From: Acidobacteriota bacterium
GTDB taxonomy: Bacteria; Acidobacteriota; Terriglobia; Acidiferrales; UBA7541
Length of the DNA stretch: 64,000 nt
Assembly: GCA_003225295.1 (NCBI GenBank)
Contig: QHYZ01000050.1
Location: 1-64,000, forward strand
Direction of reading: 5' to 3'
The translations under genes and the position numbers were made by a program. Shown here piece after piece: positions 52,405-54,833 of the stretch. Numbering within the stretch: the stretch's first letter is position 1; each line of letters starts with the position of its first letter. Under the pieces are notes generated by a model, which saw only the letters and a list, made by a program, of their open reading frames with translations, made no database searches and was not told the origin of the DNA.

Positions 52405-52438
52405 CCCGCTCCGCCCTCCAATGGCGGCCCAAAATATT

Positions 52439-52815
52439 GAGGGCGCAACCAGCTGTTAAGCGGGTTGCGCCCTCTAACTGAGCCGTAAAGTTTCTAACCT
52501 TCCCGATTCCATCTGGCGTCGTAAAAGCCGTGAGGCTGTTACGCTCTCCAAACCGATCCCTAAAGGCTTCACGCTTCGCGGTTCAATCTCGCGGCGCAAC
52601 CGCCGTTAAGTGGTTGCGTCCTCTAAATGGAACCGTAAAGTTTCTAACCTTCCTGAACCAACCTGGCGGCGCAACCGCCGTTAGGCTTGCCGCGCCTTCC
52701 AAACAGAACCCTGAAGGCTTCGAGCTCAACGATTCAATCTCGCGGCGCAGCCGCGGTTAAGCTTGCTGCGCCCTCTAAATTGATCCGTAAAGTTCCAAAG
52801 CTTCCCGGTTCAATC
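52439..52815. repeat. Five-copy tandem repeat, 75-76 bp units, alternating two types, hairpin-forming
   Basis: Units lie at 52439-52513, 52514-52588, 52589-52663, 52664-52739 and 52740-52815. Units 1, 3 and 5 share a CCTCTAA core followed by CGTAAAGTT; units 2 and 4 share TCCAAAC and CCCT.AAGGCTTC. The array is thus a degenerate 150-bp higher-order repeat. Unit 1 has a perfect 12-bp stem, GAGGGCGCAACC with GGTTGCGCCCTC (52439-52450 and 52463-52474). Unit 5 has GGCGCAGC with GCTGCGCC, where a changed base pair keeps the pairing. The array follows the isomerase gene by 34 bases. Function is unknown. Confidence 0.85.
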
Positions 52816-53328
52816 TGACGCGCAAGATAGAGGGTCCCGTTCGCGCCGTCAATCAAATTCTGATCGAACCTTTGTGCAAATCTGTGGAAGAGTGTGCAAA
52901 AATGCCGGCGCGTGGCAGGCAGACAGTCCCTTGCTTGGAGCAGTCTGTAGGATCTGTAGGAAGCGCGCGAATTCGATGCAAGCCAGGCCAAATGTTTGCC
53001 GGTTCCATTCCGCGGCGCGTAACGATTAGCTTCGCCCCACAACAACCCATGGGTTCTAAGCGACGCGTCGAGTCGTGCAATAATGTAGCAGGCGCCCACG
53101 AGAATCAGAAAGCCCACGAGAACAAGTACGATTTTTCTTCGTGCCGGGACGAACGGCACACCTGGCCACCACCGGCGGTAGAGACAAAGTAAAAACAAGG
53201 CCGAGACAGAACCCAACAGCACCAAGAATCTGCGCGTCACGAGAGCTCCCGATACAGGCCAAGGTTCCGGTACAAAGCGCAAGCGTAATCGGGACCACCA
53301 GGCGTGGCGGCTTAGCTTCTTCCGACAT
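52734..53328 (-). pseudogene. Possible frameshifted small membrane protein
   Basis: Two minus-strand frames share this stretch. One starts at an ATG at 53328 (MSEEAKPPRLVVPITLALC). The other picks up near 53240 with a hydrophobic helix, a basic WWPGVPFVPARRK loop and a second helix. Joining them with one indel near 53240 would give a plausible protein with two or three membrane segments. The part before the stop at 52734 runs into the tandem repeat and has no coding character. Either one frame is real or this is a decayed gene. The rest of the gap to 53708 shows nothing I can support. Confidence 0.3.
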
Positions 53329-53708
53329 TGTGCGGCAAGCTAACGGTTTACTGGCGCTTTCAAGTTGTTGGCGCACACCGCCAGACTGGCCTCGAGCGGA
53401 CACCTACATTTCGAAAGATAGATGTTTGTTCGTTCCATTTACGTTCTTTCCTTTCAATCATTTACAAATGGCCCGGAGCACAACTCCTTTCCTCCGGATA
53501 CCATCAATTTTCATGGGAATGTGCGGCCGATTCTTTCTTCTCTACCCACTGCCCACCCCTCACCCATCAGGGTTACCGCATCTGGTTACACACTTTTCTC
53601 ATTATTGCGTTGCTTGGCCTCGACCTCATATTTCAGGAAACTTTCTTTCCCACACTCTCGTACCTATCTCCAAGCGCCGGCCCGCCGCCGGCCGGGAGGC
53701 AACGTTTC

Positions 53709-54377
53709 ATGTCCAACCTCAGCCGAAAGATGTCTAGCCGCAAAGACATGATGTCCAACTGTTCCCGGAGTCTCTTGGCCAAGTCTGCTCTCGCCGCCAC
53801 CGCCCTTTTGTTGCTCACACCCTTTGGGGTGGTTGCGCAGTCATCCTCTGGCTCATCTAAGTCCTCATCTACTTCGTCGTCTTCGGACCGCTGGCTGCAT
53901 GTTCGCGTCATCAGCTCGGACGCCAAGGGTGAGACCGTTCGCGTCAACGTTCCCCTGGAACTAGCGGAAAGGGTTCTCCCCACGATCAACAAAGACCGCC
54001 TCCACGACGGCAAGGTCAAGATCGACAATGCCCATGTTAATGATGTCGACCTCCGCGCCCTGGTCGAAGCTATCCGCACCGCCAAGGACGGCGAGTTCGT
54101 CACCGTGCAGAGCAATGATTCGGACGTTCGTGTCGCCAAACAGAACAATCACCTGATCGTTCATGTGCTCGACAAGCAGAACTCCAAGAAGTCTGAGGTA
54201 GAAGTCAAGGTTCCCATGAAGGTTATCGATGCCCTCTTTTCCGCCGGCAAGGATGAATTGGACCTCGTGGCCGCGCTTCACGCCCTCTCCGGGCAGGGCG
54301 ATACGGAGCTTGTCTCGGTGAAGGATCATGAGAATACCGTCCGCGTCTGGCTCGATTCCAAAAACGTCACCGACTAG
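53709..54377 (+). CDS. Secreted hypothetical protein with internally repeated beta-alpha units
   Basis: 222 residues from an ATG preceded by GGGAGG at nine bases; the open frame 380 bases upstream is not coding-like. A signal sequence with cleavage near residue 40 (VVAQ) is followed by a Ser-rich linker. The remainder has two similar halves: an HVRV strand, a VPLELAERVLP helix start, a helix LRALVEAIRTAKDGEF and a VRVAKQNNHLIVHV strand pair; then VKVPMKVIDALF, LVAALHALSGQGDTELV and TVRVWLD. No named family is recognised. The next gene encodes a protein of the same organisation. Confidence 0.7.
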   Translation: MSNLSRKMSSRKDMMSNCSRSLLAKSALAATALLLLTPFGVVAQSSSGSSKSSSTSSSSDRWLHVRVISSDAKGETVRVNVPLELAERVLPTINKDRLHDGKVKIDNAHVNDVDLRALVEAIRTAKDGEFVTVQSNDSDVRVAKQNNHLIVHVLDKQNSKKSEVEVKVPMKVIDALFSAGKDELDLVAALHALSGQGDTELVSVKDHENTVRVWLDSKNVTD

Positions 54378-54395: not shown

Positions 54396-54833
54396 ATGAT
54401 GCTACTGGCGAAAGCAGCTCTCGGACTTGGCGGAACACTGGTACTCGCGGGCGCCTATACCATGCGGGAAGGCGTGATCCGGGTCGACGTCGACGAATAC
54501 CGCTCTGGCGGCTCCCACGTTCATATGTGGGTTCCCGCCGCGGCCGTCTCCATGGCCATGCATTTCGTTCCTAGCAAGCACATGCGCCATGCCTCCGAGC
54601 AGGCGCGCGCAGCTCTGCCCGTTTTTCATGCCATCATCAAGGAGCTAAAAAAATATCCGGATGCCGACCTCGTTGAAGTTGTAGATGATGATCAGCATGT
54701 GCACGTGCGCACGCACGGAGGGAAATTGCAGATTGACGTCGACGCGCCGGACGAGAAAGTTCACCTTCTCTGCCCGTTGTCGGCCCTCGAAGACGTCACC
54801 AGCCAGCTCGAAGAGCGCAGCCCGGCAGCCTAG
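54396..54833 (+). CDS. Hypothetical protein related to its neighbour
   Basis: 145 residues, 18 bases after the previous gene with AGGAGG upstream, so it is in the same operon. A short hydrophobic N-terminus (LLAKAALGLGGTLVLAGAY) may be a membrane anchor or signal. The rest repeats the neighbour's pattern: strand VIRVDVDEY, HVHMWVP helix start, helix VFHAIIKELKKYPDADLVEVVDD and strands HVHVRTHGGKLQIDV ending VHLLCPLSALEDV. One unit is present instead of two. Function is unknown; the pair may act together. Confidence 0.7.
   Translation: MMLLAKAALGLGGTLVLAGAYTMREGVIRVDVDEYRSGGSHVHMWVPAAAVSMAMHFVPSKHMRHASEQARAALPVFHAIIKELKKYPDADLVEVVDDDQHVHVRTHGGKLQIDVDAPDEKVHLLCPLSALEDVTSQLEERSPAA

Follow-up and report, generated by a model that had tools for sequence, protein, structure and literature searches.

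A predicted small-RNA gene built of paired 75-nt modules behind three phased DnaA-box-like repeats in Acidobacteria

Protein-sequestering RNAs of the CsrB/RsmY type carry many repeated hairpins in each transcript and end at an intrinsic terminator. The locus described here lies in a window of 64,000 nucleotides, the whole stretch of Acidobacteriota DNA that was analysed, and is likewise predicted to place repeated hairpins in one RNA that finishes at an intrinsic terminator. However, in the predicted folds none of the 10 GGA of the window RNA lies in a hairpin loop, and only 4 of 56 terminal units have one there; a sponge for CsrA/RsmA, which would carry GGA in its repeated hairpin loops, was rejected. 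A second comparison is offered by NsiR1 of Nostoc, which, in the outline given in PMC9045159, is an sRNA encoded in tandem intergenic copies, with ~60-nt RNAs made from individual promoters. The encoding of a small RNA as tandem intergenic copies is the point of likeness; as far as that outline goes, the two differ in that a single promoter precedes all the units here and the terminator hairpin sits in the last of them. Inside the array, a simple pattern (TTG[AC]-N-TAnnnT) matched no internal promoter, and thus not the one promoter per repeat that an NsiR1-like array would have. The trans-encoded EcpR1 of Sinorhizobium, as summarised in PMC4414408, is tied to replication control and targets the dnaA and gcrA mRNAs. 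On that summary, the present RNA would share the connection with replication control, but with the logic reversed, as DnaA would control the RNA; no sequence relation between the two is claimed.

Within the phylum itself, Acido-1 and Acido-Lenti-1 (RF01686, RF01687) have been described, in outline, as structured RNAs of Acidobacteria (PMC2864571). Our element resembles them to that extent, but no Rfam model reached its gathering threshold in the window; at low score the sole hit was ctRNA_pGA1, which was rejected for its 20.5 bits, the gathering score being 45. Rfam searches of five other loci gave a single hit, an Acido-Lenti-1 RNA (RF01687, 45.3 bits) at positions 1333-1378 of L166 (minus strand), which lies ~120 bp past one RNA copy, on the opposite strand and beside that copy rather than within it. 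Hits that fell short of a threshold were weak. The element was not named in the open literature searched by topic (mostly narrow topics, titles and openings of abstracts). We have placed it among the intergenic sRNAs, a known kind of RNA, as a family that is unusual in its growth by module pairs and in its promoter. Few RNA families are listed for the phylum; to these is added a well-supported one that is common within a single family of soil Acidobacteria.

The array had been described in a first-pass annotation of the window as five units of 75 or 76 bp at 52439-52815 with a higher-order period of 150 bp. This description holds: Tandem Repeats Finder reports 5.0 copies of 75 bp with 67% matches (52442-52816) and 2.5 copies of 151 bp with 77% matches (52442-52825), and the distances between unit starts are 75, 75, 75 and 76. 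Odd units are 79-82% alike and the even pair (units 2 and 4) 74%, against 61-71% between odd and even units, a difference that makes the alternation of two unit types, A and B, real. The gap of 34 bases between the stop of the adjoining gene (52404) and the array (52439), the unit-1 stem (52439-52454 with 52459-52474, 94% complementary) and the exchange of an A-T for a G-C pair in the unit-5 stem were found as reported. Hairpins had been assigned to units 1, 3 and 5, which do fold, but units 2 and 4 fold as well in the predicted minus-strand structure, where a hairpin termed H2 is present in each of the five units. Folding energies lie far under those of shuffled sequence (z -6.4 for the plus and z -7.7 for the minus strand; reached by none of 100 shuffles in either case). 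A coding array, already thought unlikely, was rejected, since stops (7, 3 and 6) interrupt each of the three frames read from the RNA strand and the longest open stretch is 57 codons. A reading of the units as tRNA-like (75 nt, with a GGTTCAATC motif) was also rejected, with no ARAGORN prediction in the window.

Comparison with relatives moved the limits of the feature. The conserved block runs from 52431 to ~52902 and takes in the array together with a tail beyond it, and the feature is to be read on the minus strand; strand, promoter, terminator and upstream boxes had been absent from the earlier reading. In two syntenic relatives (L090 and L091) the block is 85-87% identical, about like the neighbouring genes (85-88%), and the intergenic DNA upstream of it, ~700-1000 bp long (~52903-52911 to 53630-53885), does not align, save for 66 window bases in L090. 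In other relatives the block sits in unrelated flanks. One relative (L009/L092, genome G015) is ~94-95% identical to the window locus. We consider it very probable that positions 52901-52431 of the minus strand form a stand-alone small-RNA gene. Comparison of sequences establishes its predicted anatomy (Table 1), its conservation and its covariation, and from these we infer that the gene is transcribed.

Table 1. Predicted parts of the small-RNA gene, in window positions and in the order of the RNA.
Feature	Positions	Strand	Basis
Three tandem ~9-bp boxes (TTTTGCACA, TCTTCCACA, ATTTGCACA), 10 bp apart; probable DnaA boxes	52873..52901	(-)	sequence comparison
Promoter: -35 TTGACG, 17-bp spacer, -10 TATCTT	52824..52852	(-)	pattern scan and conserved geometry
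Predicted transcript start	~52817	(-)	inferred as 7 nt past the -10
Unit 5, type A, first in the RNA; 5' hairpin H1 and hairpin H2	52742..52818	(-)	91-99% identity to six orthologues
Unit 4, type B; H1 arms predicted to pair with unit 1; H2 a local hairpin	52666..52741	(-)	
Unit 3, type A; pairing partner of unit 2; without same-position counterpart in 3-unit relatives	52591..52665	(-)	
Unit 2, type B; pairing partner of unit 3; least identical to orthologues outside L092	52516..52590	(-)	
Unit 1, type A, last in the RNA; holds terminator hairpin 52474-52439	52439..52515	(-)	88-96% identity to six orthologues
U-rich tract AATATTTT after the terminator hairpin	52431..52438	(-)	

The computational evidence for a promoter of its own, as is expected of an intergenic sRNA gene, lies in both pattern and geometry. 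Two promoter-like sites were found in the region, TTGACG-17-TATCTT among them, with 0.2 expected from shuffles. Among the 46 tails that could be measured out of 59 (13 could not), box 3 lies 20 bp from the -35 in 45 and 21 bp in one. A TAnnnT -10, searched for at spacers of 16-18 bp, follows at 17 bp in 43 of the 46 and at 18 bp in two, and is absent in a relic (L075, described below). At the other end, every copy lined up finishes in a U tract preceded by a G+C-rich hairpin, which in most of them reads GAGGGCGC...GCGCCCTC. Hairpin and tract are present in all 56 aligned terminal units, with two-sided changes in 6 of the 11 predicted pairs, and the last 10 bases contain at least five U in 53 units and at least four in all 56. 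This alignment (A5) covers 56 of 62 units, leaving out L077:5619, L081:4155, L087:4065, L059, L069:3632 and L176, of which the last is divergent and the other five resemble rows that were kept. An intrinsic 3' terminator is thus supported by the comparison of these 56 units. A simple terminator scan of the region returned no sites, with 1.2 expected, in our opinion because the interior mismatches of the window hairpin exceed the loop limit of the scan. The loop of the terminator is variable in sequence, with CGCAAG-type loops in some copies. With the promoter in the tail and the terminator in unit 1, the array becomes the body of a predicted RNA of ~385 nt.

Conserved RNA secondary structure, a further mark of an intergenic sRNA gene, was found in the single-unit form, which accounts for 22 elements among the loci first retrieved and whose RNA of ~85 nt consists of two hairpins. 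In 21 of these RNAs (alignment A1, from which L088 was excluded for an 8-nt insert), 97.5% of cells are paired and 5 of 25 pairs have changed on both sides, with none of 500 shuffles as high; sliding the partner by one column cuts the paired cells from 97.5% to about 40%. Covariation modelling, suggested with the first-pass annotation as a check, revealed two-sided changes in the single-unit RNAs, in the terminator hairpin and in the pairing of unit 3 with unit 2. Together with the conservation of the block beside intergenic DNA that does not align, it supports selection on RNA structure, one of the two explanations then advanced. The pairing of units 3 and 2 comprises 28 pairs, of which 95.4% of cells are paired in seven orthologues and five pairs have changed on both sides; its covariation score and percentage paired were reached by none of 500 shuffles, and its count of two-sided pairs by 70 of 500. 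This holds although identity in these two units falls to 64-75% when the window is compared with L057-L059. The local hairpin of unit 3 showed no two-sided change. The pairing of units 4 and 1 (33 pairs, 98.3% paired) is weaker than that of units 3 and 2, with 19 of 500 shuffles as high; its counterpart in the 3-unit RNAs is their predicted B:A pairing. In five 3-unit RNAs the covariation term is small (0.48 for local folds, 0.96 at a span of 110 and 0.20 with unlimited span). On these predicted pairings, the A/B alternation reads as the two strands of one duplex, and both the alternation and the 150-bp period would follow from B being the pairing partner of A. The H1 arms of the middle A/B modules would pair together, giving a rod of ~385 nt with protruding H2 hairpins.

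Relatives carry 1, 2, 3, 5 or 6 units, and since 2- and 6-unit forms exist, an odd number is common but not a rule. The order in the window RNA is A(u5)-B(u4)-A(u3)-B(u2)-A(u1), and five relatives have an A-B-A form. Positions 1, 2 and 3 of the 3-unit form match positions 1, 2 and 5 of the 5-unit form at 87, 82 and 85% mean identity. Judged by this correspondence, the two forms differ by one A/B pair in the middle, whichever of them is the older. Units are on average 72-93% identical to the unit at the same position in other species, against 61-79% to units of their own array; conservation is highest at the two ends of the array (88-99% for the first and the last unit), and the units between them diverge. 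Growth by whole units agrees with the second explanation of the first-pass annotation, that a once functional element had expanded through recombination, but only in part, as the same identities place that growth long ago and the array has been retained rather than left to decay. Decayed sequence without conserved pairing, named at the time as the finding that would count against the structural reading, is not what the relatives carry: the array persists in them and its pairing is conserved. The series from a single unit through A-B-A to A-B-A-B-A, in which the added pair forms an arm of its own, offers a clean case of an RNA gene enlarging by whole modules with its fold kept.

Of 101 related genomes searched with the array DNA, 29 gave a match at E <= 0.01, among them the window genome. 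The latter (8.1 Mb in 385 contigs, 96% complete) has a single locus, and its other DNA matches span only 16-38 bases at E 2.8 or worse; a search for further copies of the unit, also proposed earlier, has thus given one locus in the genome itself and many in its relatives. A covariance model built on the single-unit form found matches in 29 of the 36 genus genomes; of the seven without one, five are at least 94% complete. In the order, 41 of 95 genomes were matched, all from one family and from 6 of 17 genera. Across the class, 33 of 299 genomes were matched at E <= 1e-3, 32 of them within the same family, and the lone match outside it (G290, 4.5e-4) may be due to chance. With regard to records bearing the triple-box pattern, 32 of 40 stretches are titled Acidobacteria (many gp2), Terriglobia, Candidatus Acidoferrales or Acidiferrum, and the remaining 8 carry other names.

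Copies at differing places, with 1-9 matches per relative genome (units and copies counted alike) and copies 1.1-1.8 kb apart in several genomes, could suggest a dispersed mobile palindromic repeat of the REP/BIME or MITE type that has expanded in tandem. Nevertheless, the window genome holds one locus rather than many dispersed copies, the units are inherited by position with promoter, boxes and terminator kept, and plasmids and phages gave no match at E 1e-3, all of which leaves a mobile repeat very improbable. Several relatives (L077, L079, L081, L085, L087, L069 and L177) hold the RNA gene twice or three times, with copies that face the same way at distances of ~1.1-4 kb.

The consensus of the E. 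coli DnaA box is TTWTNCACA, with its free position just before CACA. In the conserved tail, three TTTNCACA-like boxes spaced by 10 bp lie upstream of the promoter. At least one box is found in all 59 tails and at least two in 53, with none on the opposite strand, compared with 0.96% of control segments (n=2501) that have any box and 0.12% that have at least two, although the box-bearing tails are not independent, having been gathered by homology to a profile that includes the box region. The strict box is present in only 46 of the 59 tails and three loose boxes in only 16. Box columns were tabulated for 49 of the 59 tails, picked by their CACA spacing, which partly builds in the constancy of CACA; the boxes read mostly TTTT[GC]CACA, nnnT[CG]CACA and nTTT[CGT]CACA, with a varying base before CACA. 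This variable base coincides with the free position of TTWTNCACA (the consensus of E. coli), from which boxes 2 and 3 usually depart at the first positions.

Similar words (TTTTCCACA, CTTTCCACA, TTTTGCACA, TCATCCACA) are found around dnaA in the 12 family members in which that gene was located, out of 13 genomes searched. Same-strand pairs of boxes lie 11 bp apart in 8 of these 12 regions, versus 10 bp in the sRNA promoter, and the dnaA region of the window genome (L188) has no tandem pair by the pattern used. In most of these loci (L182-L193), DnaA-box-like words cluster at two places ~200 bp apart near the start of dnaA, which makes that region a candidate replication origin. A placement of the sRNA gene beside dnaA was rejected, the two being on different contigs, by contig numbers compared by eye, in all 11 of the genomes with a located dnaA that carry the sRNA; in such fragmented assemblies, nearness in one or another is possible. 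From the free position, these similar words and the fixed place of the boxes before the promoter, we take the triple boxes, with moderate confidence, to be DnaA boxes, and the balance tips slightly towards control of this sRNA promoter by DnaA. If they are DnaA sites, the gene would provide a concrete and testable RNA output of replication control.

OmpR-type response regulators bind direct repeats ~10 bp apart. The same sRNA gene could therefore answer to another regulator, for example of the OmpR family, and serve a stress or nutrient response instead of replication control. The 10-bp phasing and the fixed 20-bp distance to the -35 are compatible with this, and a binder of TTNCACA repeats besides DnaA is possible. 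A dedicated regulator would also suit the near confinement of the exact 10-bp triple-box pattern to the sRNA gene: among 36 places in 23 of 299 genomes of the class, 34 lie directly upstream of an RNA copy by comparison of coordinates (the backward control gave none in the genomes listed), the two exceptions being a relic at G000:C14 and G006:C99:55968. Set against the variable base at the free DnaA-box position and the similar words near dnaA in the same genomes, another regulator seems to us a serious but less than even prospect. The second exception, G006:C99:55968-55996, is a perfect triple box (TTTTCCACA type) without a detected RNA copy adjoining it, and may be another target of the same regulator.

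Clustered DnaA-like boxes might also be the functional part by themselves, as a site that titrates or reactivates DnaA (like datA or DARS), with the RNA incidental. Tail-only copies would fit such a site. One of them, in the window genome (L075; G000 contig 14, 3298-3369), has the triple box and the -35 and no detected unit, and the other (L076, in G011) continues by eye into a seemingly decayed unit. However, L075 lacks a -10 at the usual place and is probably the relic of a lost single-unit copy, L076 runs into what seems to be decay, and elsewhere the promoter, two helices and the terminator hairpin are conserved with compensatory changes, so that boxes acting without the RNA appear improbable.

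Taken as a whole, an sRNA gene with a three-box promoter and 75-nt modules, controlled by DnaA and acting in trans, is the explanation that we hold likely. One promoter with three phased boxes would drive an RNA of 75-nt H1 and H2 modules up to a terminator in the last module, and DnaA activity, which varies with replication initiation, would set its transcription. The RNA would then act in trans, either with the conserved H1 loop and linker base-paired to a target or with the repeated hairpins presented to an RNA-binding protein, and the number of modules would fix the sites carried per transcript. As the terminator loop is not conserved, the likelier working surface is H1 with its A-rich loop and the linker, of which RNAs with several units hold repeated copies. 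A regulatory function in trans that is tied to the replication cycle is conceivable but falls somewhat short of probable. A promoter wired to DnaA by a dedicated triple box, combined with a dose per transcript that evolves via complementary pairs of modules, is a more tentative suggestion still; if true, it would represent a direct RNA output of the state of replication initiation, in a phylum known mainly through members that have not been cultivated. With regard to possible targets, the dnaA leader is unsupported: only in G059, one of 9 genomes, does its complementarity to the RNA go beyond mononucleotide shuffles by more than 2 s.d., a weak negative from a crude test of duplex energies in which several dnaA starts are uncertain.

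The array is neither decaying sequence nor a cis element of an adjoining gene. A leader or attenuator of a downstream gene might be considered for the 13 of 40 elements in which the first downstream ORF (called mechanically, >=100 aa) is on the same strand, but this ORF is convergent in the other 27, so that most copies are not leaders. In a Pfam scan that covered six neighbouring ORFs, the supported gene beside the array in the window is convergent with the sRNA gene, and neighbouring genes vary from locus to locus; a leader is in our view very improbable. Two adjacent ORFs of the window (53709-54374 and 54396-54833) have no Pfam match at E 0.001, and their relatives adjoin the element in 7 and 6 other compared loci, respectively. 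Between the RNA copies of L079 and L087 lies a gene of one family, putatively racemase/aldolase-like by our reading.
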